From contig OY730175.1 of assembly GCA_963422465.1 (NCBI GenBank), positions 2,294,001 to 2,358,000 of the forward strand: a stretch of 64,000 bases of DNA. Reading direction: 5' to 3'. Shown piece after piece: positions 5,457 to 58,023 of this stretch (position 1 is its first letter; each line of letters starts with the position of its first letter). The notes beneath the pieces are model-generated. The model saw nothing but the letters and a program-made list of their open reading frames with translations, had not been told where the DNA came from and did not search any database. The DNA comes from Lichina pygmaea (lineage: Eukaryota > Ascomycota > Lichinomycetes > Lichinales > Lichinaceae). The position numbers and the translations under genes are program-made.

Positions 5457-5692
5457 TGTTGTGGTCTGTACTGTACTGTCCTATCCGAGTATATGATTAG
5501 GGTGAGAGGTGGAAGGTAGGTTGGTTCTCGCAGGAGAGGAGTGTCAAGGAGTGTGAAGGGGTTTGGTGGAACATGGTGGTGGTGACACCTGATCAACAGC
5601 TTCGTACAAAAGGATTGTATTGAAGTAGATCTAGTTGTCTGGATCACAACATGAGTTGAAGACGATTGTTCCATAGGGGAACTATTGCCAGA

Positions 5693-5700
5693 CTATATAG
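5693..5700 (-). promoter_or_regulatory. Sense TATA-like box of B-type LTR
   Basis: CTATATAG (self-complementary) lies directly downstream of the array in the gag-pol direction. It is conserved in B and C LTRs (for example 27924-27931 and 44402-44409). Its role as the core promoter for gag-pol is inferred from position. Confidence 0.55.
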
Positions 5701-5710
5701 TGCTCAATTT

Positions 5711-5932
5711 GTGAGCACAGTGAGCTCTGCTCACTTTGCTCACTCGGTGAGATCAGTGAGCTCTGCTTACTTTGCTCACAGTTCATGCACGCTGCGGCAA
5801 GCTGGGTGAGCTCTGCTCACTTTGCTCCCTTGTTCATGCACGCTGCGGCAAGCTGGGTGAGCTCTGCTCACTTTGCTCACTTTTCATACACGCTACAGTG
5901 AGCTGGGTGAGCTCTGCTCACTTTGCTCACTT
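5711..5932. repeat. Tandem array of ~51-bp units in B1 3' LTR
   Basis: Every unit contains GTGAGCTCTGCTCAC, an inverted repeat of GTGAGC around TCT, followed by TTTGCTCAC. The longer units add a TTCATGCACGCTGCGG-type linker. The number of units differs between LTRs and accounts for most of the length differences among B LTRs. Confidence 0.88.
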
Positions 5933-5978
5933 GTTTGTGCATAGGCATGCTGCGGCAAGTACTCTCTGGTTTGTCTCG

Positions 5979-5994
5979 CCAGTCACGTGACTGG
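5979..5994. promoter_or_regulatory. Perfect 16-bp palindrome with E-box CACGTG
   Basis: CCAGTCACGTGACTGG reads the same on both strands and contains TCACGTGA, a typical bHLH target. The equivalents at 11901-11916 and 62724-62739 keep the CACGTG core. Some other B LTRs carry a CACATG-type variant. Family C keeps a 10-bp version, GTCACGTGAC, at 28180-28189. Confidence 0.6.
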
Positions 5995-6053
5995 TTCCTG
6001 TGCCACGCTGTCTGGTACTTCTGTCCAGTATCCTGTCTGCTGCTTTCTGTGAG

Positions 6054-6062
6054 TATATAAAG
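6054..6062 (+). promoter_or_regulatory. Antisense-facing TATA box in B1 3' LTR
   Basis: TATATAAAG on the plus strand lies 25 bases before the inner LTR edge (6087), so initiation would fall near the LTR boundary and run into the antisense ORF that begins at about 6118. Family C has TATAAATA in the same place (28253-28260). Promoter activity is inferred from position and sequence. Confidence 0.6.
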
Positions 6063-6117
6063 ACTGTGTTCCTCCTTGGTCATAACACTATCCTCCTCTC
6101 CATCTTTCATCATCTTG

Positions 6118-6615
6118 ATGAAATCTGGTCATACCTCCAAAGTCATGTGCGACTGTTAGCTGAACTCAGCTTGCTGCTCAAATCTGCGATCAGGGTTTTG
6201 TTTCGTGTACGCCCTGCGACTTTTGTGTTCTTCGTGGTCATCTGTGCTTCCAGATGTCAGGAGAAGACAATAAGTTGAAATGTGCTGCGTGCACTCAGCG
6301 CAGAAGGTCTTGTGTCTCTGTGTCCTGGGAATCTCTGAACATGTCCCAGGACAACCTCTGTGAGGATGTGGCCACTGACAAGGCAACACGCAACACACTC
6401 TTTGAACAACTTGCCACAGTGCAGGCTTATCTGTCTTGGAAGTGAAAGGTGTTGGAGAGTGCTGAGGTCTGTGTGAGGCAGAAGCTTCAGTGCTTGGTGA
6501 AAGAGATGGAGTCGGATGGCAAGGATTTGACTTGATCAGTCATTGACACGTCTCTCCTGCAGACTGAGCTGTTCAGTCCTACTCCTGCTGAAACTGTCGC
6601 AGAAGAAGCTGGCAG
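6118..6615 (+). pseudogene. Antisense Zn2Cys6-like ORF of B1 (fossil)
   Basis: This ORF runs opposite to gag-pol, starting about 30 bases inside the 3' LTR edge and ending tail-to-tail with the last codons of pol. One open stretch contains six cysteine codons between 6215 and 6313 in the order C-x2-C-x6-C-x11-C-x2-C-x6-C, which fits the spacing of the fungal Zn(II)2Cys6 binuclear cluster. The second half reads KCAACTQRRRSC. It is followed by SWESLNMSQDNL and a region with leucines at heptad-like spacing (LFEQLATVQ), suggesting a coiled coil. B4 (35890-36255), B5, C1, C2 and A2 have equivalents. Short proteins of this type are, from memory, often annotated as hypothetical in filamentous fungi. 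DNA binding is inference. Confidence 0.7.
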
Positions 6616-7610
6616 TTCAGGAGGTTCTTGAGTGGTTCCCAGGTATTTTCCGAGTCTGGGTATCCTTTCCACTTGACAAGGTATTGCTGACCTTTTCTAG
6701 CCAGGATCTGTTCAACTTCAAACTCTTGTTCTTCTTCAGGTTGATAATGGAATATTTCCTGCAAGGGTGTGCTCTGGTCAGCTGGTTCAATCATCAACAT
6801 ATGAAAGTTTGGATAGACTCTGGCATCCCTTGGTACTTGTATCTTGATGTTGACTGGTCCTGTTCTTTCTTCGACTGAAAATAGTCTGACCTTGATGTTG
6901 TCAAGTTTCTTTGTCTTTGGTTTCTTTGTTTTCCAATTTCTTGTGAGGAGGTAGACTTTATCCCCCTTCTTTAGCTGAGATGCTATTTTCAATTTCTTGT
7001 CTATTTGACATTGTATTCTTTCTGAGGTCTCTTGAAGGTAGTGCCTTATCATTGTGTGTGTTTGTTGTAGGAGCTTGTCATGTTGGAGTGCTTTCTCCAT
7101 GTTTGGTGAAGCTCTGCTTGGCATCCCGATGTTCACATGTTGTCCAAAATTGGCAAAAAATGGTGATTCCTTTGTTGAGTCTGATCTGTGCTGGTTGATT
7201 GCCAGCTGTGCCACCAGTAGTAACTGTACCCAATTGCTGTGGGTCTGGTTGATGTAATACTGTAAGTAAGTCTCCAGGACTTGGTTTACTTGCTCTGTCT
7301 GGCTGTCAGTTCGTGGGTGATAGGCCGTAGACATTTTGGGTTTTGTTCCTATGGCTGCACTGATTGTCTTCCAGTAGTTGGATGTGAAGAGTTTGTCTCT
7401 GTCTGTAATGATCATGATTGGAACTCTGTGGTCTCTGACCAATCTGTCCAGTAAGAGGTGTCCCAACTGTTCTGCTGTGTGGGTCTCCCTGAATAGTACT
7501 GCTATTAGATATTTTGTGAATCTGTCCACTATCACCATAATCAAGTTGTAGGTGATTCCTGTGACTGGGTCTTTGGACTTGGGTAGCTTTGTGATGAAGT
7601 CTATTGACAT
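6579..7610 (-). CDS. Integrase core plus chromodomain, C-terminal pol piece of B1
   Basis: An open piece of 343 codons. Residues 1-170 are an integrase core with SIDFITKLPKSKDPVTGITY, IVDRFTKY, ITDRDKLFTSNYWKT, STAYHPRTDSQTEQVNQ and NWVQLLLVAQLAINQ. The next ~110 residues are the basic integrase C-terminus (KKGDKVYLLTRNWKTKK). A chromodomain closes the piece ([34 protein letters not shown]) at about residues 285-330. In chromoviruses such chromodomains steer integration to methylated-H3K9 heterochromatin. The 3' end overlaps the antisense ORF tail-to-tail. It is part of a fossil element. Confidence 0.88.
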   Translation of the reverse strand: MSIDFITKLPKSKDPVTGITYNLIMVIVDRFTKYLIAVLFRETHTAEQLGHLLLDRLVRDHRVPIMIITDRDKLFTSNYWKTISAAIGTKPKMSTAYHPRTDSQTEQVNQVLETYLQYYINQTHSNWVQLLLVAQLAINQHRSDSTKESPFFANFGQHVNIGMPSRASPNMEKALQHDKLLQQTHTMIRHYLQETSERIQCQIDKKLKIASQLKKGDKVYLLTRNWKTKKPKTKKLDNIKVRLFSVEERTGPVNIKIQVPRDARVYPNFHMLMIEPADQSTPLQEIFHYQPEEEQEFEVEQILARKGQQYLVKWKGYPDSENTWEPLKNLLNCQLLLRQFQQE

Positions 7611-10600
7611 ATCTTCCCACAGGCCTCTTGGTATCCTGTTCGGGTGTTCTTCTCTGTATGGCTTATATCTTCTATGTTTGTTTTTCTGGCATAGTAGACA
7701 CTTGCTGATGTAGTTTGTGACATGTTGTCAGAGGTTAATGACATTGTTCTCTGCCTATTAGATAAAGTCTGTGGTCTTGGAGATTCCTGGGTGACTATGT
7801 GCTGGATTATCATGGTAGTTCCTTATTAGTTCTTCAGTGTCTTCTGCTGTGAGCTTGTTGATCTGTGGTTAAGGCACCAGGTTTCCTTGCTAGTCCTGCT
7901 GTAAGATCATTCCTTAGTGTTCATCATCTTCCATGTGGTCTTTTCGTCAGCTTAGTGTATCTGCTCTCCTATTGTCTTGTCCAGGGGTGTACAAGATTTT
8001 GAACTTGTGTTGCCCTAGGAGTTCAGCCCATCTGACTTGCCATCTGTTCAGCTTCTTGGTTATCATGAACATTGTTAGATTCTTGTAGTCTGTGAGAACA
8101 GTGAGTTCAGAACTGCTTTCTGTGTACACTCTCCAGTGTTCAAGTGTGTTGACAACTGCCAGTAGCTCTTTGTTGTGGATATCATAGTTTTGTTCCCCTT
8201 GTGTTATTTTTCATGAGTAGTAGGCAACTTGGTGCCACTTGCCGTCTGCCTGTTGGTATAGATATGCTCCCACTGCCTGATCTGAAGTGTCTGTCTTGAT
8301 TTGTGTCGGTTGGCCTGTCTTGAAGTTGAGGAGAACTGGTTCCTTGGCGCAAGTGTCCTTGAGCTGTTGGAATACTTTTTGTTGTCTCTCCATCCACCAG
8401 TACTCCACATCCTTCTTTGTGAGTTCTGTCAGTGGTGTTGCCATCTGTGAGTAGTTCTTAATAAACTGTCAGTTGAAGTTGGCAAATCCTAGGAAGGCTT
8501 GTACTTTCTTAACTGATGTCATTGTTGGCTATTGCTGAATCAGTTTAATTTTCTCAGAGTCAATCTTGATCTCTTTGATCCCTATGATGTATCTGAGAAA
8601 TTCAACTTCCGGTTTGTTGAACTTGCATTTCTTTGGGTTGAGCTTGAGCCCTACCTGTTGTAGGTATTGTAGAACATCCTTCACATGTTTGGTATGTTCC
8701 TGTTGCGTGTTCGAGTAGACAAGAATGTTGTCTAGGTAGATGATAGCTGTTTGGTCCAGGTGTGCTCTGATGATGTTGTTGATCAATGTTTGACATGTTG
8801 CTGGTGCATTTGTGAGTCTGAATGGCATAACCAGATACTTGTAGTGTCTGTATCAGGTTCTGAAGGCTGTCTTCCATTCTTCTCCTTCTTTCATGCATAT
8901 CAGGTTTTATGCTCCTTTCAAGTCCAGCTTGGTAAAGATTGTAGCTTGGCTGATCCTGTCTCACAATTTGTTCGCATTTGGCAACAGATATCAGTTCTTG
9001 ATGGTAATGTTGTTGAGTTTCCTGTAATCCACACAAAGTCGAAGACTTCTGTCTTTCTTTGGTGCAAATAGTATCAGGTATTCTGCTGGCGATTGAGATT
9101 CTTGAATGAAACTCTTTTTCAGATTTTCCTCCAGGTACTCGCAAAGTACTTGGAGCTCTTTCTCTGATAACTGGTAAATTGGTCCAAATCCTGGCTCTGT
9201 CCCTGGTTATAACTTGATCTCATGATCCCAAGGTTGGTGCTTAGGCAACACTGCTGTTGTTGTCTCTTCCTGAAAGAGGTTATCATACCCAGGTCAGTAC
9301 TCTTCAGAGATCTCCAGAGGGTTAACAACTTCCTCTCTCTTCATCTCTGACTGTTTGGCCACCTGGTTCTGGGGTGTGCCTGTCAAGGCAGACCTCTTCT
9401 CTTGAGAGTTGTTCTTTCTGTTGGTGAGGTTCCACTGAGGACTTCTTCCCTCATCTGTCCACACCTTCTGCGGCTGGTAACAGGTCTGAGCTGTGTTGTT
9501 AGTGCAGTTCCTAAATGTGAGTACTCCTGTTGTCCAGTTAACAACTGGGTTGTGCTTCTTTAGCCAAGGCATCCCCAAATAGATATCCTGAGTGGCCAAC
9601 TCAACAATATCAAGGTGGATCCTTTCAGCATAGTGTCTGGTAACTATTTCCATTGGCTGCGTCTCATGGCAGACTAGCTCTGTCTGTCTATTTGCTATCG
9701 TGAGCTGATAGGGCTGCTGCTTGCGTCTCCTTCCAGTGCCAAGAGTATCGTAAAGTTGTCTCAAGATGTAGTTTCCACTGGCTCCAGAGTCAACAAGTGT
9801 GTATGTCTGTACTGGCGTGTTGGCGTGTAGTGACACAGGCAATCGCAGGTGCTTTGTGTTGCTAGGAGTCATGTTGTTGAGCTCCTGATGTCACCCCTTG
9901 ACAAGGGAGTTCAGTCTTTTCCTGATTGAAGTGTCTTTCCACTGACTGGGCAATAGGTCTACCCATTTCCATCAGTTCTGAGGAATCTGTTCATGAATTT
10001 GTCTTGCTGATGCTTGCCACATCCAGGCTTGAGGCAGTACTGCCAATTGTCAACATAGCAGTTGTGGTTGTTGCCTTGCTGTAGGAACATGAGGCTTTTG
10101 TGCCAATCATGTGTGTGCCCAGGGAATGTGGTGTGTTGGCATTTGTCCCAAAGGTGGATCTCACACGCATCCTTCTCGCAATTGACCCAATGCTTGTGGC
10201 AGGTGGCGTGGTAGGGTGAATGTCCTCTATACCTTTGTAGTTGTTCGTGGTAGGTGCAGTAGTACTTTGTGCAAAACCTCCACTGTAGTTCGCTGTGCTG
10301 TAGATTTTGTGAGTCTATGCTGTAAGCATAGCTTCCTTGTGGTATTTCTTCTTTGATAGACACGGGTTTGTCTCAGTCCCTATCAGAGGTAGTTAAGGAC
10401 TCCTGTCCCTTGTCCTGACCTATCTGTTCTGGTAGGTCCTTGCCTCCTGATGTTGCCAGTTGGTGGGCTGCTCCCAATATCTGATCGTAGTTGTCCTATT
10501 GTTCAAGAGATAGCTGAGCCTCTCATGGTGGGTCCTCTGGCTTGATGATATTTCAGTCTCTGTCAAGTCTATTAAGTTGCTGTCAGTACACCTTGTTCTT

Positions 10601-12009: not shown

Positions 12010-12107
12010 ATAGATCTCACACACATCCTTCTCGCAATTGACCCAATGCTTGTGGCAGGTGGCGTGGTAGAGTGAATATCCTCTGTACCTTCGTAGTTGT
12101 TCGTGGT
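12010..12107 (-). pseudogene. B2 fragment between B1 and LINE copy 1
   Basis: A 98-bp piece of the gag-protease spacer of B2. It starts with the ATAGA TSD of B1 and ends with the 15-bp TSD of LINE copy 1. It is collinear with 39001-39095 of C1. No separate gene. Confidence 0.85.
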
Positions 12108-12286
12108 TTTTATTTTATTTTATTTTTATTTGATTCTTACACTGGTAGTAGCTTTACAGCCATGCAGATCTTCTAGCTAATAGTGAACTCCTTCAGAAAA
12201 CCTTTGAAGGGATAAAAACTGAAGGCAGGGTGTGACTAGGGAATGTACCAAAAGGAATCTTGAAGTTTCTGGTAAGAGAAGAGAAT

Positions 12287-16918: not shown

Positions 16919-17006
16919 GTTAGAGATTGTTTGGCACTGGTTGGGTGTTTTCTGTCTGCAGAGTACTGCCAGAAAGAAGAGTCACCTGGTTTCCCAGCAG
17001 TAATAA

Positions 17007-17120
17007 TCTAGTCCTGGGACCAATCCCCAAGACTAGACTTTCCTGGGCAGCTTTTTCCAACTAAGCTCTGGGCAAAGCTAGAAGTATTAACCTAGACTAG
17101 GGACCAGACCCTCTATCTAG
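17007..17120 (-). other. Two 5'-UTR stem-loops of LINE copy 1
   Basis: Equivalent to the hairpins of copy 2 at 48523-48553 and 48607-48637. Here they lie at 17092-17120 and 17007-17037. Both stems close on a GGTCCC or GGGACC side and are kept in both copies. Confidence 0.55.
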
Positions 17121-17211
17121 ACTTTCCTTGAGCCAAAGACTCTGCTAGCTCCAGAGTCAGTCAGACTCTAACCATTCCTCTTATCCTGAGACTCTCTCTC
17201 TGATTGTGGGT

Positions 17212-17782: not shown

Positions 17783-18244
17783 TGTTAAAGGCTGGGCCGG
17801 GTTCACACAGAAGGCGGCTCAGTCTGTTGCTTTGCAGGGCGGATTCTAGACAGGGACTCGGTAGAGGAATAGACAGGTGGGGTAACTCTCCTGTGCTATT
17901 GTCTCAGTACGATGGGTTTGTATTGTGTGTTCAGCCTGGAGAGCTAATCCCTCCAGGCCCTTTGGGGGGTCTTTATACAGATGCCCCAAGAGGGGGGGTC
18001 TCCTCGAGGGGTATTATCCTTTTGTGTGGACAAGCTCCTTGCTTAGCTCCTGCTTGTCCACCAGACAAGCTCCTCACTTAGCTCCTGCTTGTCCACCAGA
18101 CAAGCTTCTTGCTTAGCTCCTGCTTGTCCACTGGACAAGCTCCTCGCTTAGCTCCTGCTTGTCCACTGGATCAGTCAGATGTTGTTCCACATGACTAACA
18201 CTCCTCCCTCACTTACCTGGGCTGTTCCGGCCTAGGCCTTAACA
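17783..18244 (-). repeat. 3' LTR of A2 (462 bp)
   Basis: TGTTAAAGG...CCTTAACA. Contains a four-unit 35-bp array at 18028-18167 and the sense TATA-like box. I see no clear TATA box facing the antisense ORF in this family, unlike B and C. Confidence 0.93.
18028..18167. repeat. Four-unit 35-bp array in A2 3' LTR
   Basis: Units run GGACAAGC ... GCTTGTCC plus spacer, as in A1. The 5' LTR of the same element has four units at 23845-23984. Confidence 0.9.
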
Positions 18245-18259
18245 CTATCCCCTCCCTCC
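18245..18259 (-). other. Polypurine tract of A2
   Basis: Directly adjoins the 3' LTR. The minus strand reads GGAGGGAGGGGATAG, the expected primer site for plus-strand DNA synthesis. Families B and C have a very similar tract in the same place (6088-6101, 28289-28304, 36335-36355). Confidence 0.75.
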
Positions 18260-18305
18260 AAGGGTTCTGTCCCCAGATCCTTTTTGTTCCTGCTCCTCTT
18301 TTGTC

Positions 18306-18878
18306 ATGAACCAAAGCCAGACAACTTGAACTTGTCATCGCAATTTTCTTTCTTGTCGTATTGGCAAAATAGGCAAGGAATCAAAAATCACATGCAGTGC
18401 TTGTTGTCGTGACCTCGCCAAGTGTGTCGTTAGCTCTGCATCATCTTTTTGTCATCGGTGTGTTGAGAAGGGTCATCACTGTGACCTTCATCTCTCAGAA
18501 TCAGAATAGAAGAAGATGGAACTTGAGTGCGAGCAGCTCAAGGCTCAGTTGCGGGAGACCAATGACCAATTATCAAAGTTGCTTCCCTGGCAGATCCACC
18601 TCCACTGGCAGCTGGGTTGTCTCTCACAGAAGGAGGCTGATGCCATCTGTCGTGAGCTGTCTGCCATCAAGAATCAGGAATCTCTTGATGCTCAGGAACA
18701 GGAGACTCTCCATGTTATCTGCGAACAGGAGGCCAGTCAGGCTGCTGCTCCGCTGTCCTTTGAGGATGTCTTCTCTTCAGAGACTTTGGCTTCTCTTGAG
18801 CTGTTGTCTCTGTCAGACCTGGTCACTGCGGGTTTGCTTGGTGGTAATCCACCAGCTTCTGGTTCATCGCAGAGCTAA
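18306..18878 (+). pseudogene. Antisense Zn2Cys6-like, coiled-coil ORF of A2 (fossil)
   Basis: Opposite to pol, between the 3' LTR and the chromodomain end. Six cysteine codons between 18393 and 18482 follow C-x2-C-x6-C-x8-C-x2-C-x6-C. The open piece 18516-18878 (120 codons) is rich in Glu, Gln and Leu (LECEQLKAQLRETNDQL, ending in a Ser/Gly-rich tail) and looks like a coiled coil followed by a short acidic segment (SFEDVFSSETLASLELLSLS). There is little sequence similarity to the B/C version, but the architecture and location are the same. It overlaps the pol 3' end tail-to-tail. Function unknown. Confidence 0.68.
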
Positions 18879-23560: not shown

Positions 23561-23599
23561 TCGTATTGAGTCAGTGTCCTATGTGTTAGAGGCTGAAAC

Positions 23600-25368: not shown

Positions 25369-27686
25369 AGAGGTAACATGTGACGCACTTTTTGAACAGC
25401 TTGCTGTAGTGCAAGTTTGTCTGTCTCAGAAGTGAAAGGTGTTGGAAGGTGCTGAGGTCTGTGTGAGGAAGAAGCTTCAGTGTCTGGTGAAAGAGATAGA
25501 GTTAGATGGTGAGGATTTGACTTGGTTAGTCATTGACATGTCCCTTCTGCAGGCTGAGCTGTTCAGTCCTACTCCTGCTGATACTGTCGCAGAAGAAGAT
25601 AGCAGTTTGTGAGGTTCTTGAGTGGTTCCCAGGTATTTTCCAAGTCTGGGTATCCTTTCCACTTGACAAAGTATTGCTGACCTTTCCTAGCCAGAATCTA
25701 CTCAACTTTGAACTCTTGTTCTTCCTCTGGTTGATAGTGAAATGTTTCCTGCAAGGGTGTACTCTGGTCGGCTGGTTTAATCATTGATATATAAAAGTTT
25801 GGATAGACTCTGGCATCCCTTGGTAGTCGTATCTTGATATTGACTAGTCCTGTTTTCTCTTCGACTGAAAATAGTCTGACCTTGATATTGTCAAGTTTCT
25901 TCGTCTTTGGCTTTTTTGTTTTCCAATTTTTTGTGAGAAGGTAGACTTTATCCCCCTTCTTCTGCTGAGGTGCTATTTTTGATTTTTTGTCTATTTGGTG
26001 TTGCATCTTTTCTGAGGTTTCTTGAAGGTAGTGCCTTATCATTGTGTGTGTTTGTTATAGGAGCTTGTCATGTTGGAGTACTTTCTCTGTGTTTGGTGAA
26101 GCTCTGCTTGGTATTCTGATGTTTGTGTGTTGTCCAAAATTGGCAAAGAATAGTGATTCCTTTGTTGAGTCTGATCTGTGCTGGTTAATTGCCAGCTGTG
26201 CCACTGGTAATAGCTGTACCTAATTGTTGTGAGTCTGGTTGATGTAATACTGCAAATAAGTCTCCAGGACTTGGTTCACTTGCTCTGTCTGGCTGTCAGT
26301 TTGTGGGTGATAGACTGTAGACATTTTGGGTTTTGTTCCTATGGCTGCACTGATTGTTTTCTAGTAGTTGGATGTGAAGAGTTTGTCTCTGTCAGTAATG
26401 ACTGTGATTGGAACTCCATAATCCCTGACCAATCTGTCCAGTAGGAGATATCCCAACTGCTCTGCTGTGTGAGTTTCCTTGAATAGTACTGCTATTAGGT
26501 ATTTTGTGAATCTGTCCACAATCACTATAATTGAGTTGTAGGTGATTCTGGTGACTGGGTCTTTGGACTTGGGTAGCCTTGTGATAAAGTCTATTGACAC
26601 ATCTTCCCAAGAGCCTCTTGGTATTGTGTTCGGGTGTCCTTCTCTGTATAGCTTATGTCTTCTATGTTTGTTTTTCTGGCATAGTAGATACTTGCTGATG
26701 TAGCTTGTGACATGTTGTCAGAGGTTAATAACATTGTTCCCTGCTTGTTGGATAAGGTCTGTGGTTTTGGTGATTCCTGGGTGACTATGTGCTAGATTAT
26801 TGTGGTAGTTCCTTATTAGTTCTTCAGTGTCTTCTGCTGTGAGCTTGTTGATCTGTGATTGAGGTACCAGGTTTCCTTGCTAGTCCTGCTGTAAGATCAT
26901 TCCTTGGTGTTCATCATCTTCCATGTGGTTTTTTCATCAGCTTAGTACGTCTGCTCTCCTATTGTCTTGTCCAGGGGTGTACAAGATCTTGAACTTGTGT
27001 TACTCTAGGAGTTCAGCCTATCTGACTTGTTGTCTGTTCAGCTTCTTGGTTGTTGTGAATATTGTCAGATTCTTGTGGTCTGTGAGAACAGTGAGTTCAG
27101 AACTACTTTCCATGTACACTCTCCAGTGTTCAAGTGTGTTGACAACTGCCAGTAGCTCTTTATCGTGGATATCATAGTTTTGTTCTGCTTGTGTTATTTT
27201 TCGTGAGTAGTAGGCAACTGGGTGCCACTTGCTGTCTGCCTGTTGGTATAGACATGCTCCCACTGCCTGATCTGAAGTGTCTGTTTTGATTCATGTTGGC
27301 TGGCCTGTCTTGAAGTTGAGGAGGACTGGTTCCTTGGTGCAAGTGTTCTTGAGCTGTTGGAATACTTTTTGTTATCTCTCCATCCACCAGTACTCCACAT
27401 CCTTCTTTGTGAGTTCTGTCAGTGGTGTTGCTGTCTGTGAGTAGTTCTTGATAAACTGTTGGTTGAAGTTGGTAAATTCTAGGAAGGCTTGTACTTCCTT
27501 GACTGATGTCAGTGTTGGCTATTGCTGAATCACTTTGACTTTCTCAGGGTCAATCTTGATCCTTTTGATTTCTATAATGTATCTGAGGAATTCAACTTCC
27601 AGTTTGTTGAACTCACATTTCTTCAGGTTGAGCTTGAGCTCTGCCTCTTGTAGGTATCATAGAACATTCTTCACATGTTTGGTATA
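25369..27686 (-). pseudogene. C3 3' part: antisense ORF remnant, chromodomain, integrase, RNase H, part of RT (fossil)
   Basis: B-like antisense remnant on the plus strand at 25369-25620. Then on the minus strand: chromodomain and integrase C-terminus at about 25600-26042, integrase core at about 26280-26600, zinc region at about 26620-26920, RNase H at about 26930-27400, and RT end up to 27686 where C1 is inserted. Confidence 0.83.
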
Positions 27687-27938
27687 TGTTGTGGTCTGTA
27701 CCATGCTGTCCTAACCAAGTATAGGATTAAGGGTGAGATGCAGAAGGCAGGTTGGTTCTCGCAGAAGAGGAGTGTCAAGGAGTGTGAAGGGGTTTGGTGG
27801 AACATGGTGGTGGTGACACCTGATCAATAGCTTCGTACAAAAGGATTGTATTGAAGTAGATCTAGTTGTCTGGATCACAACATAAGTTGAAGATGATTAT
27901 TCTATAAGGGAACTATCGCCAGACTATATAGTGCTGGC

Positions 27939-28160
27939 CTGTCAAGACAATCAAGATTGTCTTGACAGTCTTGATGTCAAGACAGGTGAGATTGTCTTGA
28001 CAGTCCCACCATATTATGCACCCTGCGTCAAGACTGGTGAGATTGTCTTGATGCTTCATGCATCCTGTGTCAAGACTGGTGAGATTGTCTTGATACTTCA
28101 TGTATCCTGCGTCAAGACTGGTGAGATTGTCTTGATGCTTCATGCATGCTGTGTCAAGAC
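27939..28160. repeat. Palindrome plus ~42-bp tandem array in C1 LTR
   Basis: 27939-27968 is a perfect inverted repeat with 13-bp arms (CTGTCAAGACAAT) around CAAG. Array units follow, each carrying TCAAGAC ... GTCTTGA with a ~10-bp spacer (TGGTGAGATT). The palindrome recurs at 40528-40557 and 44417-44446. This array replaces the GTGAGC array of family B. Confidence 0.88.
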
Positions 28161-28252
28161 TCCTGTGTGTGTCTCGACAGTCACGTGACCTCTTGTTGGT
28201 TGGTCACTTGACTTCCATGGTGTCCTCTTGCCTGGCCTGCAGCCTGATTACT

Positions 28253-28260
28253 TATAAATA
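28253..28260 (+). promoter_or_regulatory. Antisense-facing TATA box in C1 3' LTR
   Basis: TATAAATA lies 28 bases before the LTR inner edge and points to the antisense ORF. The same element is at 40848-40855 and 44729-44736. Confidence 0.6.
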
Positions 28261-28332
28261 AGTGGCTCCTATCCCATGGGTCATAACACTACCCTCCTCT
28301 CCTTCATTTATTGTCCTGATGAATTCTTGAGT

Positions 28333-28832
28333 ATGTCTGCAAAATCATGTGCCTCTGCTTACTGAAAACAACTGGCAGCCCAGATCTGTGATCATAACTT
28401 CATGTCACTTGCTCTGTGTGACTTCTGTGTTTTGAACCACAAGCCCTGCTTCTGAATATCTGACAACAACAATAAGTTGAAGTGCGCTGAATGCACTTGT
28501 CGTGGGAAGTCCTGTGTGTCACTTTCTTGGGAGTCGCTGAACATGACCTGAGATAATCTTCACGAGGATTTAGCTGTTGATGAGGCCAAGCAGGATGCTC
28601 TTGTTGAGCAGCTTGCCAAGCTGCAGGCTTGTGTGTCCTGAAAGTGAAAGGTTCTTGAAGGTGCTGAGGGTCAAGCAAAGAAGAAGCTCCAGTGCCTTGT
28701 TGCTGAAATGGAGGTGGATGGTGAAGATTTGTCGGCAACAGTCATTGATGTGTCTGCACTGCAGGCCAAGCTGTTCAGTCCTACTTCTGCCAGAACTGCT
28801 GCAGGAGGAGCTGGCAGTTCACGAGGTTCCTG
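28333..28832 (+). pseudogene. Antisense Zn2Cys6-like ORF of C1 (fossil)
   Basis: Equivalent to that of C2. The cysteine codons run from 28417 to 28515 in the same spacing as family B. A helical region follows (about 28560-28700). It ends tail-to-tail with the pol C-terminus. Confidence 0.65.
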
Positions 28833-30382
28833 AGTAGTTCCCAGGTATTTTCTGAGTCTGGGTATCCTTTCCACTTGACAAGGTATTGCTGACTTTTCCT
28901 AGCCAGAATCTGTTCAACTTTGAACTCTTGTTCTTCTTCAGGTTGGTAATAAAATGTTTCCTGCAATAGTGTGTTCTGGTCAGCTAATTTGATCATTGAG
29001 ATGTGAAAGTTGGGGTGTACCTAAGCATCTCTCAGTAGTCGCAGTCTGACATTAACTGGTCCAGTTTTTTCTTTGACTGAAAATAGTCTGACCTTGACAT
29101 AGTCCAGTTTCTTTATTCTTGGTTTCTTGACTTTCCAATTTTTTGTGAGGAGGTAGACTTTATCCCCCTTCTTCAGCTGAGGTGCTATTTTCAATTTTTT
29201 GTCTATTTGGTGTTGCATCTTTTCTGAGGTCTCTTGAAGGTAATACATCATTATTGTGTGTGTTTGTCGTAGGAGCTTGTCATGTTGGAGTGCTTTCTCT
29301 GTGTTTGGTGAAGCTCTGCTTAATATTCTGATGTTTGCGTGTTGCCCAAAATTGGCAAAAAATAGTGATTTCTTTGTTGAGTCTGATCTGTGCTGGTTGA
29401 TTGCCAGCTGTGCCACCGGTAATAACTGTACCTAATTGCTGTGGGTCTGGTTGATGTAATACTGTAAGTAAGTCTCCAGAACTTGGTTTGCTCACTCTGT
29501 CTGGCTGTCAGTTCGTGGGTGATAGACTGTAGATATTTTGGGTTTTGTTTCCATGGCTGCACTGATTGTTTTCCAGTAGTTGGATGTGAAGAGTTTGTCT
29601 CTGTCAGTAATGATTGTGATTGGAACTCTGTAGTCTCTGACCAATCTGTCCAGTAAGAGGTGTCCCAACTGTTCTGCTGTGTGGGTCTCCTTGAATAGTA
29701 CTGCTATCAGATATTTTGTGAATCTGTCCACTATCACCATAATCAAGTTGTAGGTGATTCCTGTGACTAGGTCTTTGGACTTGGGTAGCTTTGTGATGAA
29801 GTCTATTGACATGTCTTCCCAAGGGTCTCTTAGTATTGTGTTTGAGTATCTCTCTCTGTATAGCTTATGTCTTCCATGTTTGTTTTTCTGGCATAGTAGA
29901 CACTTGCTGATGTAGCTTGTGACATGTTGTCAGAGGTTGATGACATTGTTCCCTGCCTGTTGGATAAGGTCTGTGGTTTTGGTGATTCCTGGGTGACTAT
30001 GTACTGGATTATTGTGGTAGTTCCTTATTAGTTCTTTAGTGTCTTCTGCCATAAGCTTCTTGATCTGTGGTTGAGGCACCAGGTTTCCTTGCTGGTCCTG
30101 CTGTAAGATTGTTCCTTGGTGTTCATCATCTTCTATGTAGTCTTTTTGTCAGCTTAGTGTGTCTGCTCTCCTATTGTCTTGTCCAGGGGTTTACAAGATC
30201 TTGAACTTGTGTTGCCCTAGGAGTTCAGCCTATCTGACTTGTTGTCTGTTCAGCTTCTTGGTTGTTGTGAACATTGTCAGATTCTTGTGGTCTGTAAGAA
30301 CAGTGAGTTCAGAACTGCTTTCCGTGTACAGTCTCCAGTGTTTGAGTATGTTGACGACTGCCAGTAGCTCTTTGTTGTGGAT
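28781..30382 (-). pseudogene. C1 3' pol: chromodomain, integrase, RNase H end (fossil)
   Basis: Chromodomain in the piece 28781-28996 ([19 protein letters not shown]). Integrase C-terminus at 29021-29416, integrase core at 29492-29812, zinc region at about 29840-30130 and the end of RNase H up to 30382, where B4 is inserted. Confidence 0.85.
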
Positions 30383-34832: not shown

Positions 34833-35846
34833 GTGTCCATAGACTTCATCACAAAGCTACCCAAGTCCAAAGACCCAGTCACAGGAATCACCTACAACTT
34901 GATTATGGTGATAGTGGACAGATTCACAAAATATCTAATAGTGGTACTATTCAAGAAGACCCACACAGCAGAACAGTTGGGACACCTCTTACTGGACAGA
35001 TTGGTCAGAGACCACGGAGTTCTGATTATGATCATTACAGACAGAGACAAACTCTTCACATCCAACTACTGGAAGACAATCAGTGCAGCCGTAGGAACAA
35101 AACTCAAAATGTCTACAGCCTATCACCCACAAACCGACAGCCAGACAGAGCAAGCAAACCAAGTCCTGGAGACTTACTTACAGTATTACATCAACCAGAC
35201 CCACAGCAATTGGGTACAGTTATTACCAGTGGCACAGCTGGCAATCAACCAGCACAGATCAGACTCAACAAAGGAATCGCTATTTTTTGCCAATTTTGGA
35301 CAACATGCGAACATCAGGATGCCAAGCAGAGCTTCACCAAACATGGAGAAAGCACTCCAACATGACAAGCTTCTACAACAAACACACACGATGATGAGGC
35401 ACTACCTTCAAGAGACCTCAGAAAGAATGCAACATCAAATAGACAAGAAATTGAAAATGGTACCTCAGCTAAAGAAGGGGGATAAAGTCTACCTCCTCAC
35501 AAGAAATTGGAAAATGAAGAAACCAAAGACAAAGAAACTTGACAACATCAAGGTCAGACTATTTTCAGTCAAAGAAAAAACAGGACTAGTCAACGTCAAG
35601 ATACAACTACCAAGGGATGCCAGAGTCCATCCAAACTTTCATATGTTGATGATTGAACCAGCCGACCAGAGCACACCCTTGCAGGAAACATTCTATTATC
35701 AACCTGAAGAAGAACAAGAGTTTGAAGTTGAACAGATCCTGGCTAGAAAAAGTCAGCAATACCTTGTCAAGTGGAAAGGATACCCAGACTCGGAAAATAC
35801 CTGGGAACCACTCAAGAACCTCGCGAACTGCCAGCTTCTTCTGTGA
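34833..35846 (+). CDS. Integrase core plus chromodomain, C-terminal pol piece of B4
   Basis: An open piece of 337 codons, equivalent to 6579-7610 in B1. Integrase core motifs SIDFITKLPKSK, VDRFTKY, ITDRDKLFTSNYWKT and STAYHPQTDSQTEQANQ lie in the first 130 residues. The basic C-terminus (KKGDKVYLLTRNWKMKK) and a chromodomain ([20 protein letters not shown]) follow at about residues 285-330. The zinc-binding region lies upstream at 34500-34800 in separate pieces. Fossil element part. Confidence 0.88.
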   Translation: MSIDFITKLPKSKDPVTGITYNLIMVIVDRFTKYLIVVLFKKTHTAEQLGHLLLDRLVRDHGVLIMIITDRDKLFTSNYWKTISAAVGTKLKMSTAYHPQTDSQTEQANQVLETYLQYYINQTHSNWVQLLPVAQLAINQHRSDSTKESLFFANFGQHANIRMPSRASPNMEKALQHDKLLQQTHTMMRHYLQETSERMQHQIDKKLKMVPQLKKGDKVYLLTRNWKMKKPKTKKLDNIKVRLFSVKEKTGLVNVKIQLPRDARVHPNFHMLMIEPADQSTPLQETFYYQPEEEQEFEVEQILARKSQQYLVKWKGYPDSENTWEPLKNLANCQLLL

Positions 35847-35889
35847 CAGTTTTGGCAGGAGCAGGACTGAACAGCTCAGCCTGCAGGAG

Positions 35890-36290
35890 GGACATGTCAA
35901 TGACTGATCAAGTCAAATCCTCACCATCCAACTCTATCTCTTTCACCAAGCACTGAAGCTTCTGCCTCGCACAGACCTCAGTACCCTCCAACACCTTTCA
36001 CTTCCGAGACCGACAAGCCTGCACTGTGGCAAGTTGTTCAAAGAGTGTGTTGTGTGTTGCCTTGTCAGTGGCCACATCCTCACAGAGGTTGTCCCGGGAC
36101 ATGTTCAGAGATTCCCAGGACACAGAGACACAAGACCTTCCGTGCTGAGTGCACACAGCACATTTCAACTTATCGTCTTCTCCTGACATCTGGAAGCATG
36201 GATAACTACAAAGAACACAAAAATCGCAGGGTGTACGTGAAACAAAACTCTGATTGCGGATTTGAGCAGCAAGCTGAGTTCAGCTAACAG
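35890..36290 (-). pseudogene. Antisense Zn2Cys6-like ORF of B4 (fossil)
   Basis: On the minus strand, opposite to this plus-strand element. The six cysteine codons run from 36228 down to 36130 in one open stretch, spaced C-x2-C-x6-C-x11-C-x2-C-x6-C. The open piece 35998-36189 continues with KCAVCTQHGRSCVSVSWESL and a Leu-spaced helix. The same arrangement as in B1 and B5 shows that the ORF travels with the element. Confidence 0.7.
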
Positions 36291-36334
36291 TCACACATGA
36301 CTTTGGAGGCATGACCGGATTTCATCAAGATAAT

Positions 36335-36355: not shown

Positions 36356-37023
36356 TGTTACAACCCAGGAGGAACACAGTCTTTATATACTCACAGGGAG
36401 TAGCAGACAGGATACTGGACAGAAGTACCAGGCAGCATGACACGGGAACCAGTCATGTGACCGGCGAGACCAACCAGGGGGTGCTCACCACAGCATGCAT
36501 ATGCACGAACAAGTGAGCAAAGTGAGCAGAGCTCACCCAGCTCACCGCAGTGTGCATGAACAAGTGAGCAAAGTGAGCAGAGCTCACCCAGCTCACCGCA
36601 GCGTGCATGAACAAGTGAGCAAAGTGAGCAGAGCTCACCCAGCTCACCGTAGTGTGTATGAACTGTGAGCAAAGTGAGCAGAGCTCACCAATCTCACCGA
36701 GTGAGCAAAGTGAGCAGAGCTCACCAATCTCACCAAGTGAGCAAAGTGAGCAGAGCTCACTGTGCTCATGAACTGAGCACTATATAGTCTGGCAATAGTT
36801 CCCCTATGGAACAATCATCTTCAACTCATGTTGTGATCCAGACAACTAGATCTACTTCAATACAATTCTTTTGTACGAAGTCATTGATCAGGTGTCACCA
36901 CCACCACATTCCACCAAACCCCTTCACACTCCTTGACACTCCTCTCCTGCGAGAACCAACCCGCCTTCCACCTCTCACCCTAATCCTATACTCGGATAGG
37001 ACAGTACGGTACAGACTGCAACA
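36356..37023 (+). repeat. 3' LTR of B4 (668 bp)
   Basis: Same ends as the 5' LTR but 36 bp longer, with an altered number and type of array units (36505-36755). On the minus strand TATATAAAG reads leftward into the antisense ORF. Confidence 0.92.
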
Positions 37024-44165: not shown

Positions 44166-44762
44166 TGTTGCGGTCTGTACTGTACTGTCCTATCCGAGTA
44201 TAGGATTAGGGCAAGAGGTGGAAGGCAGGTTGGTTCTCGCAGGAGAGGAGTGTCAAGAAGTGTGAAAGAGTTTGGTGGAATGTGGTGGTGGTGACACCTG
44301 ATCAATAGCTTCGTACAAAAGGATTGTATTGAAGTAGATCTAGTTGTCTGGATCACAACATGAGTTGAAGATAATTGTTCCATAAGGGAACTATTGCCAG
44401 ACTATATAGTGCTGGCCTGTCAAGACAATCAAGATTGTCTTGACAGTCACAACATCAAGACAGGTGAGATTGTCTTGACAGTCCCACTATGTTATGCACC
44501 CTGCGTCAAGACTGGTGAGATTGTCTTGATGCTTCATGTATCCTGTATCAAGACCAGTGAGATTGTCTCAATGCTTCATGCACCCTGCGTTGAGACTGGT
44601 GAGATTGTCTTGATGCTTCATGCATCCTGCGTCAAGACTCCCGTGTCTCGACAGTCACGTGACCCCTTGTTGGTTGGTCACTTGACTTCCATGGTGTTCT
44701 CTTGCCTGGCCCACAGCCTGATTGCCTATAAATAAGTGGCTCCCATTCCCTGAGTCATAACA
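44166..44762 (-). repeat. 3' LTR of C2 (597 bp)
   Basis: TGTTGCGG...CATAACA, with palindrome 44417-44446, ~42-bp array, CACGTG at 44657-44662 and antisense-facing TATAAATA at 44729-44736. Confidence 0.91.
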
Positions 44763-44806: not shown

Positions 44807-45298
44807 ATGTCTGCAAAATCACATGCCTCTGCTTACCAAAAACAACTGGCAGTCCAGATCTGTGATCATAACTTTGTGTCGCTTGCTCTGTGTGACTTCT
44901 GTGTTTTGAGCCACAAGCCCTGCTTCTGAATATCTGACAACAACGATAAGTTGAAGTGCGCTGAATGCACTTGTCGTGGGAAGTCCTGTGTGTCACTTTC
45001 TTGGGAGTCGCTGAACATGACTCAGGATAACCTTCGCGAGGATTTGGCTGTTGATGAGGCCAAGCGGGATGCTCTTGTTGAGCAGCTTGCTGAGCTGCAG
45101 GCTTGTGTGTCCCAAAAGCGAAAGGTTCTTGAAGGTGCTGAAGGTTGAGCAAAGAAGAAGCTCCAGTGCCTTGTTGCTAAAATAGAGGCAGATGGTAAAG
45201 ACTTGTCGGTGACAGTTATTGACATGTCTGCGCTGCAGGCCAAGCTGTTCAGTCCTGCCTCTGCCGGAACTGTCGCAGAAGAAGCTGGCAGTTCGTGA
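44807..45298 (+). pseudogene. Antisense Zn2Cys6-like, coiled-coil ORF of C2 (fossil)
   Basis: Starts 45 bases inside the LTR edge with ATGTCTGC and ends over the pol C-terminus (about 50 bp tail-to-tail overlap). Cysteine codons between 44891 and 44989 follow C-x2-C-x6-C-x11-C-x2-C-x6-C. The open piece 44951-45148 reads KCAECTCRGKSCVSLSWESL and then a charged heptad-like helix (LVEQLAELQACVSQKRKVLE). This is the clearest family-C example of the element-encoded antisense protein. The homology to Zn2Cys6 regulators is a spacing match only. Confidence 0.7.
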
Positions 45299-48237
45299 GG
45301 TTCTTGAGTGGTTCCCAGGTATTTTCCAAGTCTGGGTATCCTTTCCACTTGACAAGGTATTGCTGACCTTTCCTAGCCAGGATCTGTTCAACTTTGAACT
45401 CCTGTTCTTCCTCTGGTTGGTAATGAAATGTTTTCTGCAAGGGTGTGCTCTGGTCAGCTAATTTGATCATTGAGATGTGAAAGTTTGAGTGTACCCAAGC
45501 ATCTCTCGGTAGTCACAGTCTGATGTTGACTGGTCCAGTTTTTTCTTTGACTGAAAATAGTCTGACCTTGATGTTGTCAAGTTTCTTTGTCTTTAGTTTC
45601 TTTGTTTTCCAATTTCTTGTGAGGAGGTAGACTTTATCCCCCTTCTTTAGCTGAGGTGCCATTTTCAATTTCTTGTCTATTTGATGTTGTATTCTTTTTG
45701 AGGTCTCTTGAAGGTAGTGCCTTATTATCGTGTGTGTTTGTTGTAGGAGCTTGTCATGTTGGAGTGCTTTCTCCACGCTTGGTGAAGCTCTGCTTGGCAT
45801 CCTGATATTCGTATATTGTCTAAAATTAGCAAAAAATAGTGACTCCTTTGTTGAGTCTGATCTGTGCTGGTTGATTGCCAGCTGTGCCACCGGTAATAAC
45901 TGTACCTAATTACTGTGGGTCTGGTTGATGTAATACTGTAAGTAAGTCTCCAGGACTTGGTTTGCTTGCTCTGTCTGGCTGTCAGTTTGTGGGTGATAGG
46001 CTGTAGACATTTTGGGTTTTGTTCCCATGGCTGCACTGATTGTCTTCCAGTAGTTGGATGTGAAGAGTTTGTCTCTGTCTGTAATGATTGTGATCAGAAC
46101 TCTGTGGTCTCTGACCAATCTGTCCAGTAAGAGGTGTCCCAACTGTTCTGCTGTGTGGGTCTCCTTGAATAGTACCACTATTAGATATTTTGTGAGTCTG
46201 TCCACTATCACCATAATCAAGTTGTAGGTGATTCCTGTGACTGGGTCTTTGGACTTGGGTAGCTTCGTGATGAAGTCTATTGACACATCTTCCCATGGGC
46301 CTGTCAGTATTGTGTTCAGATATCCTTCTCTGTATGGCTTATGTCTTCCATGTTTGTTTTTCTGGCATAGTAGACACTTGCTGATGTAGTTTGTGATATG
46401 TTGTCAGAGGTTAATGATATTATTCCCTGCCCATTGGATAAGGTCTGTGGTCTTGGTGATTCCTGGGTGACCATGTACTGGATTATCATGGTAGTTCCTT
46501 ATTAGTTCTTCAGTGTCTTCTGCTGTGAGCTTGTTGATCTGTGGTTGAGGTACCAGGTTTCCTTGCTGGTCCTGCTGTAAGATTGTTCCTTAGTGTTCAT
46601 CATCTTCCATGTGGTCTTTTTGTCAGCTTAGTGTGTCTGCTCTCCTATTGTCTTGTCCAGTGGTGTACAAGATCTTGAACTTGTGTTGCTCTAGGAGTTC
46701 AGCCCATCTGACTTGCTGTCTGTTCAGCTTCTTGGTTATTGTGAACATTGTCAGATTCTTGTGTTCTGTGAGAACAGTGAGTTCAGAACTGCTTTCTGCG
46801 TACACTCTCCAGTGTTCGAGTATGTTCACAACTGCCAATAGCTCTTTGTCGTGGATATCATAGTTTTGTTCTGCTTGTATCATTTTTCGTGAGTAGTAGG
46901 CAACTGGGTGCCACTTGCCATCTGCCTGTTGGCATAGACATGCTCCCACTGCCTGATCTGAAGTGTCCGTCTTGATTTGTGTTGGTTGGCCTGTTTTGAA
47001 GTTGAGAAGAACTGGTTCTTTGACGCAAGTGTCCTTGAGTGGTTAGAATGTTTTTTGTTGTCTCTCTGTCTACTGGTACTCCACATTCTTCTTTGTGAGT
47101 TCTGTCAGTGGTGTTGCCATCTGTGAGTAGTTCTTAATAAACTGTCAGTTGAAGTTGGCAAATCCTAGGAAGGCTTGTACTTTCCTAACTGATGTCAGTG
47201 TTGGCCATTGCTGAATCACTTTGATTTTCTCAGGGTCAATCTTGATCTCTTCGATTCCTATGATGTATCTGAGGAATTCAACTTCCAGTTTGTTGAACTC
47301 GCATTTCTTCAGGTTGAGCTTGAGCCCTGCCTTTTGTAGGCATCGTAGAACATCCTTCACATGTTTGGTATGTTCCTGTTGTGTGTTCAAGTAGATAAGA
47401 ATGTTGTCCAGGTAGGCAATAGCTGTTTGGTCCAGGTGTGCTCTGATGATGTTGTTGATCAATGCTTGACATGTTGCTGGTGTGTTCGTGAGTCTGAATA
47501 GTATAACCAGGTACTTGTAGTGTCCATATCAGGTTCTGAAGGCTGTCTTCCATTCTTCTTCTTCTCTCATGTGTATCAGGTTGTATGCTCCTTTCAAGTC
47601 TAGCTTGGTAAAGATTGTAGCTTGGCTGATCCTGTCTTGCAATTTGTTCACATTTGGCAACAGATATCAGTTCTTGATAGTAATGTTGTTGAGTTTCCTG
47701 TAATCCACACAAAGTTGAAGACTTCTGTCTTTCTTTAGTGCAAATAGTATCAGGTATCCTGCTGGCGATTGAGATTCTTGAATAAAACCCTTTTTCAGGT
47801 TTTCCTCCAGGTACTCGCGAAGTACTTGGAGCTCTTTCTCTGATAACTGGTAAATTGGTCCAAATCCTGGCTCTGTCCCTGGTTGCAACTTGATCTCATG
47901 ATCCCAAGGTTGGTGCTTAGGCAACACTGCTATTCTTGTCTCTTCCTGAAAGAGGTTATTATACCCAGGTCAGTACTCTTCAGAGATCTCCAGAGGGTTA
48001 ACAACTTGCTCTCTCTTCATCTCTGACTGTTTGGCCACCTGGTTCTGGAGTGTGCCTGTTAAGGCAGACCTCTTCTCTTCAGAGTTGTCCTTTCTGTCAG
48101 TGAGGTTCCACTGAGGACTCCTTCCCTCATCTGTCCACACCTTCTGCGGCTGGTAACAGGTCCAAGCTGTGTTGTTAGTGCAGTTCCTAAACATGAGTAC
48201 TCCTGTCCTCCAGTTAACAACTGGGTTCACAAAACTC
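45249..48237 (-). pseudogene. C2 pol: chromodomain, integrase, RNase H, RT, part of protease linker (fossil)
   Basis: Chromodomain piece 45249-45470; integrase C-terminus 45513-45890; integrase core 45906-46286; zinc region about 46310-46610; RNase H 46623-47086; RT 47145-47927; linker to 48237, where LINE copy 2 interrupts. Confidence 0.86.
48226..48237. repeat. 12-bp TSD of LINE copy 2
   Basis: AACAACTGGGTT at 48226-48237 is repeated at 53534-53545. The uninterrupted sequence in C1 (near 38385) has one copy. The first A residues are ambiguous with the A-rich tail. Confidence 0.88.
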
Positions 48238-48522
48238 TTCCCAGAACCACGTTCTTCAAGGACCATCAATTTTGACAAACACCACAATTTGTCATATGTT
48301 CTGGAAAACAGCCGAGTTCCTCTCTGAAACCACCCAAACCTTAAGGTGAAAACCCATCACCTTTGAGAATCACACCTGTTTGTCAAAAGTTGTGATCTTG
48401 AATCCACGATCTTCTTCAACAACCAGCAATCTACCCACAACCAGAGAGAGAGTCTCAGGATAAGAGGAATAGTTAGAGTCTGACTGACTCTGGAGCTAGC
48501 AGAGTCTTTGGCTCAAGGAAAG

Positions 48523-56927: not shown

Positions 56928-57420
56928 ATGAAATCCAGTCATACCTCCAAAGTCACATGCGACTGTTAGCCGAACTCAACTTACTGCTCAAATCTGCGAT
57001 CAGGGTTTTGTTTCACATACGCCCTGCGACTTTTGTGTTCTCTGTAGTCGTCCATGCTTCCAGATGCTGGGAGAAGACAATAAGTTGAAATGTGCTGCAT
57101 GCACTTGGCGCAGAAGGTCTTGTGTCTCTGTGTCCTGGGAATCTCTGAACATGTCCCGGGACAACCTCTGTGAGGATGTGGCCGCTGACAAGGCAACACG
57201 CAACACACTCTTCAAACAACTTGCCACAGTGTAGGCTTATCTGTCTCAGAAGTGAAAGGTGTTAGACAGTGCCAAAGTCTGTGCAAGGCAGAAGCTTCAG
57301 TGCTTGGTGAAAGAGATGGAGTCAGATGGTGAGGATTTGACTTGATCAGTCATTGACACATCCCTCCTGCAGGCCGAGCTGTTCAGTCCTGCTCCTGCCG
57401 AAACTATCACAGAAGAGCTG
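56928..57420 (+). pseudogene. Antisense Zn2Cys6-like ORF of B5 (fossil)
   Basis: The six cysteine codons lie between 57025 and 57123 with the family-B spacing, within one open stretch. The second half reads KCAACTWRRRSCVSVSWESL. It overlaps the pol end tail-to-tail near 57346-57420. Confidence 0.7.
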
Positions 57421-58023
57421 GCAGTTCACAAGGTTCTTGAGTGGTTTCCAGGTATTTTCCGAGTCTGGGTATCCTTTCCACTTAACAAGGTATTGCTGAC
57501 TTTTTCTAGCCAGGATCTGTTCAACTTTGAACTCTTGTTCTTCTTCAGGTTGATAATGGAATGTTTCCTGCAAGGGTGTGCTCTGGTCAGCTGGTTCAAT
57601 CATCAATATATGAAAGTTTGGATGGACTCTGGCATCCCTTGGTAGTCGTATCTTGATGTTGACTAGTCCTGTTTTTTCTTCAACTGAAAATAGTCTGACC
57701 TTGATGTTGTCAAGTTTCTTTCTCTTTGGTTTCTTTGTTTTCCAATTTCTTGTGAGGAGGTAGACTTTATCCCCCTTCTTTAGCTGAGGTGCCATTTTTG
57801 ATTTCTTGTCTATTTGATGTTGCATTCTTTCTGAGGTCTCTTGAAGGTAGTGCCTCATCATTGTGTGCGTTTGTTGTAGGAGCTTGTCATGTTGGAGTGC
57901 TTTCTCCATGTTTGGTGAAGCTCTGCTTGGCATCCTGATGTTCGCATGTTGTCCAAAATTGGCAAAAAATAGTGATTCCTTTGTTGAGTCTGATCTGTGC
58001 TGGTTGATTGCCAGCTGTGCCAC
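57346..58023 (-). CDS. Integrase C-terminus and chromodomain piece of B5
   Basis: A 225-codon open piece. It starts in the late integrase core (AQLAINQHRSDSTKES), continues through the basic C-terminus (KKGDKVYLLTRNWKTKKPK) and ends with a chromodomain ([20 protein letters not shown]). Part of a fossil pol gene. Confidence 0.86.
   Translation of the reverse strand: MAQLAINQHRSDSTKESLFFANFGQHANIRMPSRASPNMEKALQHDKLLQQTHTMMRHYLQETSERMQHQIDKKSKMAPQLKKGDKVYLLTRNWKTKKPKRKKLDNIKVRLFSVEEKTGLVNIKIRLPRDARVHPNFHILMIEPADQSTPLQETFHYQPEEEQEFKVEQILARKSQQYLVKWKGYPDSENTWKPLKNLVNCQLFCDSFGRSRTEQLGLQEGCVND

Follow-up and report, generated by a model that had tools for sequence, protein, structure and literature searches.

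What is a gene with six regularly spaced cysteines doing on the opposite strand of a retrotransposon? The question is raised by a window of 64,000 nucleotides of the ascomycete Lichina pygmaea (contig OY730175.1, positions 2,294,001 to 2,358,000), by which we mean the whole stretch analysed. A sequence-only reading of this window had placed such a gene between pol and the 3' long terminal repeat (LTR) in three families of Gypsy elements (A, B and C) and had likened its product to Gal4-type DNA-binding proteins. Our answer builds on features computed here, namely the gene's position, its copy number, purifying selection, near-invariant cysteines, a Zn2Cys6-like predicted fold, family-specific arrays in the LTRs, and the positions of TATA sites. 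From these we think it rather likely that the elements encode a Zn2Cys6-like dimer, expressed from a bidirectional LTR, which binds the LTR array and regulates its own element.

An antisense gene in chromodomain Gypsy elements

The antisense gene does lie between pol and the 3' LTR in families A, B and C, tail-to-tail over pol. The two genes overlap by 53-56 bp, leaving ~90% of the antisense gene outside pol; the stop codon of pol is at 6579-6581 in B and 18823-18825 in A, and the antisense frames end at 6631 and 18878, respectively. A fourth Gypsy family, A2, likewise carries an antisense six-cysteine gene. Pfam cut-offs were exceeded by PF00385 (chromodomain), PF03732, and PF08284, which, with an integrase followed by a chromodomain and with gag/protease, identifies the elements as chromodomain Ty3/Gypsy (chromovirus) elements, while the integrase core and SH3 profiles fell marginally below (PF00665, 32.1 vs 32.6 bits; PF24626, 29.9 vs 30). 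The cysteine blocks at 6215-6313, 57025-57123, 36130-36228 (minus strand), and 18393-18482 are open and have the spacing that had been claimed for them. In the blocks at 28417-28515 and 44891-44989 all six cysteines are likewise present, but a stop codon splits the third from the fourth. The start that had been placed at 6118 has to be moved, as the ATG there is out of frame and the antisense frame begins at 6131. This ATG, 13 bp upstream of the frame, also occurs in an open B copy (locus L016), and would create a short upstream open reading frame (ORF) overlapping the antisense gene. A complete antisense ORF is found in none of the 7 copies or pieces in the window, each of which has stops and/or has lost its start or a part.

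Genome searches covered an assembly of 32.5 Mb in 8 contigs. With B and A queries, the best 150 of 495 and the best 150 of 261 candidates were matched genome-wide; with a C-like and an A2-like relative as query, these were the best 150 of 509 (part of them B) and the best 150 of 291 (with many A matches among them). The matched 59-residue cysteine segment is stop-free in all 150 listed A matches and contains a stop in many of the listed B matches. Among the 30 A loci and 30 B loci read, which were best matches and no random sample, nine and one, respectively, had an open full-length copy, all of these outside the window. The open copies encode proteins of 190 (A), 176 (A2), and 166 (both B and C) amino acids.

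The association also appears from the side of the chromodomain. Among the best 150 of 966 candidate chromodomains, 114 had an antisense-gene match within 1.5 kb, in a comparison that used 337 antisense places and left out the listed A-query matches. The match was on the opposite strand in every one of the 114 pairs, and on the expected side at the expected spacing in 113, compared with 4.8 under random placement. Twelve of the 36 unpaired chromodomains were inspected, and all 12 had the antisense gene or its remains: ten retained the motif (with stops or a single missing cysteine in some), one was full length minus two cysteines, and one was reduced to both ends. Because 114 of the 150 listed chromodomains are paired and the inspected remainder was positive throughout, the antisense gene is indeed a standard part of these Gypsy elements. 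Decay of the copies is CpG-like, turning arginine positions into cysteine, histidine, glutamine, tryptophan, or stops; extra cysteines in old copies are therefore decay products, and we judged conservation by comparing families and by the copies with less decay.

Selection on the protein and its predicted fold

With the pol overlap excluded, the ratio of nonsynonymous to synonymous substitution rates (dN/dS) between A and A2 was 0.21 (bootstrap 0.12-0.32), or 0.24 with a second A2 copy. The values between B and C, 0.12 and 0.09, are rough, with synonymous sites near saturation and the upper bootstrap bound undefined. The antisense frame alone was stop-free in both partners in all 4 between-family pairs. 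One opposite frame also gave a low ratio (0.18-0.43), which is expected because third codon positions coincide. A dN/dS of 0.1-0.2, together with conservation of the six cysteines across diverse relatives, argues for a translated product.

Three profile searches, each scoring 8000 candidates, found 79, 73, and 98 proteins. The organisms named among these relatives are Talaromyces marneffei, T. stipitatus, Fusarium sp. NRRL 66182, and Watsoniomyces obsoletus (a metagenome-assembled genome); most are unnamed. We aligned 28 chosen sequences with a whole N-terminal part (alignment A7: 24 database relatives, one of them from Fusarium, and four from this genome), and the six cysteines were its sole invariant columns, which bears out the expectation that they are more conserved than other residues across families. 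The next-best columns were the glycine before the last cysteine (93%) and a tryptophan, a leucine, and an isoleucine (89% each). When 73 fetched relatives were recounted, 56 spanned all six positions and 53 of these had six cysteines, which were still the best columns (98-100%, then tryptophan at 95%), figures that are somewhat inflated because profile searches favour such residues. The full-span relatives with a lost cysteine, P0171, P0185, and P0222, are outside the chosen 28.

Zn2Cys6 domains of PF00172 follow the pattern C-x2-C-x6-C-x(5-12)-C-x2-C-x(6-8)-C, and all 28 sequences of A7 have its six cysteines, with a loop of 8-14 residues; the loop of 14 in P0146 is longer than usual, and the first half of P0147 contains x5. 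A PF00172 profile search, as the sequence-only reading had suggested, did detect similarity, but the curated 21-bit cut-off was missed: the best printed score was 19.0 bits (P0184), with 16.4 bits for A, 14.9 bits for A2, and a best E of 0.00076 in one protein set. We therefore refer to the protein as Zn2Cys6-like. The loop proline before the fourth cysteine is not conserved in A7 and is invariant in 8 host PF00172 domains. The 32.5 Mb yielded 27 PF00172 matches at E<=0.001, and introns may hide some; this is few for a filamentous ascomycete.

In a search of the PDB with a profile of the relatives, the best sequence was GAL4 (E 0.0016); the B alignment alone gave no match there, and the A alignment alone gave coiled-coil and RING matches and no Zn2Cys6. 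In two AlphaFold models the fold is similar to that of Zn2Cys6 DNA-binding domains, with two short helices each started by CxxC, and the structural neighbours listed are clusters that bind DNA. The helical region that had been noted after the cysteines is modelled as a helix of 63 or 83 residues. Pattern, best PDB match, and predicted fold thus support the Gal4-type arrangement, and the protein is probably Zn2Cys6-like: a short N-terminal helix would precede the binuclear cluster, which a long coiled-coil helix and finally an acidic tail would follow. As had been remarked, the A version shares the pattern and little sequence; alone it had no good blastp match to B or C. Comparison by hhalign nevertheless shows the A and B proteins to be homologous (probability 95%, P 5e-8, 131 columns), and A2 matches C by blastp (E 5e-5, 155 columns, 25% identity); on these grounds an independent origin of the A and B proteins was rejected.

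Six relatives (P0146, P0179, P0184, P0195, P0200, and P0214) have a common extra C-terminus (SSWGF...TWQDSxLSH), perhaps encoded opposite pol. A back-translation test for C-termini of relatives opposite a chromodomain did not show this; of 231 proteins, only two gave a weak signal (shuffle P 0.055 and 0.08). Likewise, scans of viral and genome contigs for the genomic context of distant relatives confirmed no relative.

Arrays and promoter sites in the LTRs

The LTR of each family contains a tandem array, mostly palindrome-rich, between the sense TATA and the region where the antisense gene starts, an arrangement newly seen here (Table 1). The array of A2 has a larger unit than those of A, B, and C. 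Half-sites are group-specific, apart from GGACGAG, which is common to A and A2, and at least four were found in 30/30 B, 25/30 A, 2/2 A2, and 2/2 C copies; at 11 further loci the upstream sequence was too short, and one more was without a match. All 30 B and both C copies have an antisense TATA 75-79 bp ahead of the start codon, whereas none of the 30 A and 2 A2 copies has one there. Further upstream, TATA-like sites on the opposite strand were found in 29 of 30 B copies and in all A (30), A2 (2), and C (2) copies. Their commonest positions are -350, -400, and -436/-437 in B and -264, -299, -334, and -369 in A, in steps near the lengths of the array units.

The 420 bp preceding the start codon were examined for palindromes against shuffled sequence. 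The arms were 14 in both C copies (0/400 shuffles), 10 in B (P 0.0025), 9 and 6 in the two A2 copies (P 0.0125 and 0.57), and 8 in A (P 0.07); within-gene controls gave P >= 0.1. No CGG enrichment was found in 6 copies. The B locus L016 has a perfect 16-bp palindrome, CCGGTCACGTGACCGG, ~150 bp upstream of the start of the antisense gene, between the array and the antisense TATA.

Table 1. Features of the Gypsy elements in the window
Feature	Position	Strand	Remarks
B 3' LTR, element on minus strand	5457..6087		self-comparison
TATA-like site toward B gag-pol (sense), far side of array	5694..5699	-	
B LTR palindrome-containing tandem array	5711..5935		36- and 50-bp units, GTGAGC/GCTCAC half-sites
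TATATAAA facing B antisense gene	6054..6061	+	TATA ~75 bp before start codon in 30/30 B copies
Polypurine tract adjoining B 3' LTR	6088..6105	-	sequence itself
B antisense six-cysteine gene, start codon lost, in-frame stops	6131..6631 (copy listed as 6131-6628)	+	cysteine block 6215-6313
B pol fragment (integrase, SH3, chromodomain)	6579..7727	-	overlaps antisense gene by 53 bp, 6579-6631
A 3' LTR	17783..18244		self-comparison
TATA-like site toward A gag-pol (TTTATA on + strand)	17972..17977	-	
A LTR tandem array, partly decayed	18029..18166		35-bp unit, GGACGAGC/GCTCGTCC half-sites
A antisense six-cysteine gene, in-frame stops	18306..18878	+	cysteine block 18393-18482; overlaps pol
B antisense gene, C-terminal piece	25370..25618	+	partial copy
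C 3' LTR	27687..28288		self-comparison
TATA-like site toward C gag-pol	27925..27930	-	
C LTR tandem array, partly decayed	27954..28161		42-bp unit, TCGAGAC/GTCTCGA half-sites
TATAAAT facing C antisense gene	28253..28259	+	
C antisense six-cysteine gene, internal stops	28333..28833	+	cysteine block 28417-28515
Antisense six-cysteine gene of inverted B element	35815..36312	-	cysteine block 36130-36228
Tandem array, LTR beside inverted B antisense gene (35815..36312)	36502..36760		
Tandem array, LTR beside second C antisense gene (44807..45304)	44494..44639		
Antisense gene of second C element, C/B mosaic at end	44807..45304	+	cysteine block 44891-44989
Antisense gene, further B element	56941..57432	+	cysteine block 57025-57123

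The gene at 44807-45304 and those of loci L075 and L082 are mosaics of a C-type cysteine domain and a B-type later part, which points to possible recombination between families. Self-comparison of the window revealed nested LTR elements, with an A element within a B/C-type one (17783-24063) and a LINE (long interspersed nuclear element) within another element (48228-53534). This LINE-like element, which encodes an endonuclease and a reverse transcriptase, occurs at 12107-17211 (-), 48433-53534 (+), and 63525-64000, the last being a copy cut by the window end. Both long copies have a 1083-residue open ORF; the copies are 98.6% identical and apparently younger than the LTR elements.

A proposed self-regulating element and its alternatives

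In the mechanism that we favour, the accessory gene would be ancestral in chromodomain Ty3/Gypsy elements, antisense and just inside the 3' LTR. The U3 region of the LTR would act as a bidirectional promoter: gag-pol would be transcribed from the sense TATA, and the accessory gene from an antisense promoter at the inner border of the 3' LTR. The family-specific array with its palindromic half-sites would be the most likely binding site of the coiled-coil dimer, much as Gal4 is located between GAL1 and GAL10, and the dimer on the array may then regulate both its own gene and the element's gag-pol transcription. This supposes that the protein binds zinc, dimerises, is made from an antisense transcript, and binds the array, where its effect could be activation or repression. 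Given a bidirectional LTR, a central array, a probable dimeric DNA-binding protein, and arrays and proteins that differ between families, self-regulation is the simplest model. Taken as single array units, the longest inverted repeats had shuffle P values of 0.007 (A), 0.04 (A2), 0.105 (C), and 0.20 (B), which by themselves would be weak evidence, and the co-divergence of array and protein is suggestive only, because array and protein gene are physically linked.

The same fold evidence would also suit a selected Zn2Cys6-like factor that acts on host chromatin or host genes, for example through integration tethering, anti-silencing, or host transcription, while the arrays serve host factors. 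Host factors might indeed bind the arrays, and the palindrome of B locus L016 contains CACGTG, which resembles a host E-box. We nevertheless consider such a host target unlikely, as the arrays are group-specific and lie between both promoter regions where examined, and as the protein type and the GGACGAG half-site are both common to A and A2. To a role in binding element RNA or cDNA (Rev-like export, a nucleocapsid-like function, or a pre-integration step) we give still less credence. A small protein with a basic N-terminus and a zinc cluster would suit it, and according to passages of a 2020 review (PMC7264820), plant antisense ORFs may have functions similar to those of retroviral accessory proteins; however, the structural neighbours listed are clusters that bind DNA, and gag already supplies CCHC knuckles. 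Such knuckles are present in six B/C-type copies and one A-type copy in the window, assigned to gag by their position, and replacement of a missing nucleocapsid knuckle was rejected on that account.

It is also conceivable that the antisense RNA is what matters, through double-stranded RNA, small RNAs, or promoter interference, with the ORF as a passenger, and the same passages (PMC7264820) consider that antisense transcripts might trigger silencing. The dN/dS values and the conservation of the six cysteines speak for a translated product instead, making this explanation very improbable. An incidental origin of the ORF, through composition or through coding on the opposite strand, seems scarcely credible, even though the tail of the ORF overlaps pol and cysteine codons arise from arginine codons by CpG decay: most of the gene lies beyond pol, the other frames have stops, and the conserved cysteines also occur in less decayed copies and in relatives. 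We rejected it on the between-family pairs, in which only the antisense frame is open in both partners.

Antisense genes in LTR elements are already known: brtn of Botrytis, those of plant Retand and Grande, and HBZ of human T-cell leukaemia virus type 1 (HTLV-1). The first of these was reportedly described by Zhao et al. in Virology in 2011. It is an antisense gene of Boty-like elements in Botrytis cinerea, and the descriptions in passages of citing papers (PMC8365987, PMC4227169, PMC5987419) mention neither a Zn2Cys6 cluster nor an LTR array for BRTN. In excerpts on the plant elements, the TRP28 antisense ORFs of Retand (PMC11963269) and gene23 of maize Grande (PMC7264820) resemble the fungal case in lying between pol and the 3' LTR, occurring in most copies, and having a suggested nuclear or DNA-related role. 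They differ in protein domain and in belonging to plant lineages, Retand being a non-chromovirus, and transcription of gene23 is ascribed there to a promoter in the gene's upstream region. HBZ offers a likeness in being driven from the 3' LTR, as we propose here. It is a dimerising DNA-regulatory protein, a spliced basic leucine zipper (bZIP) protein, and the HTLV-1 LTR has repeated regulatory units. The Lichina protein would work like HBZ without being a member of the same group: no bZIP family was among the matches of sets of 5, 10, and 8 proteins, nor, for 21 more, in 25 of 55 families. The antisense promoter of HTLV lies within the 3' LTR, according to the review passages (PMC7264820). With Gal4 and other Zn2Cys6 proteins (PF00172) our protein shares the six-cysteine pattern, the predicted cluster fold, the long helix after the cluster, and the acidic tail; it differs in missing the Pfam cut-off, lacking a conserved loop proline and a large middle domain, and being encoded by a retrotransposon.

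Titles and abstract beginnings of the open-licence papers listed in our searches contained no fungal retrotransposon antisense gene of this kind apart from brtn, and neither the protein class nor the LTR array design was described there. The word "antisense" is absent from the main text of a fungal LTR-element survey (PMC3248453) and of PMC4427930. The function of the antisense genes in Grande, RIRE2, Retand, and brtn is stated to be unknown in passages of the 2020 review (PMC7264820). Here, a recognisable protein class comes with a visible putative target that is specific to each family, and protein-DNA specificity, autoregulation, and co-divergence therefore become directly testable. More tentatively, it is intriguing to consider an ancient fungal lineage in which an antisense Gal4-like master regulator and its co-diverged arrays (GGACGAG, GTGAGC, TCGAGAC) form a private switch for each family, a possible fungal parallel to HBZ. 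If the elements do regulate themselves, such a retrotransposon may carry a control switch of its own, and a genome could receive hundreds of copies of a gene for a DNA-binding protein along with the matching arrays, from which new host regulators might arise.
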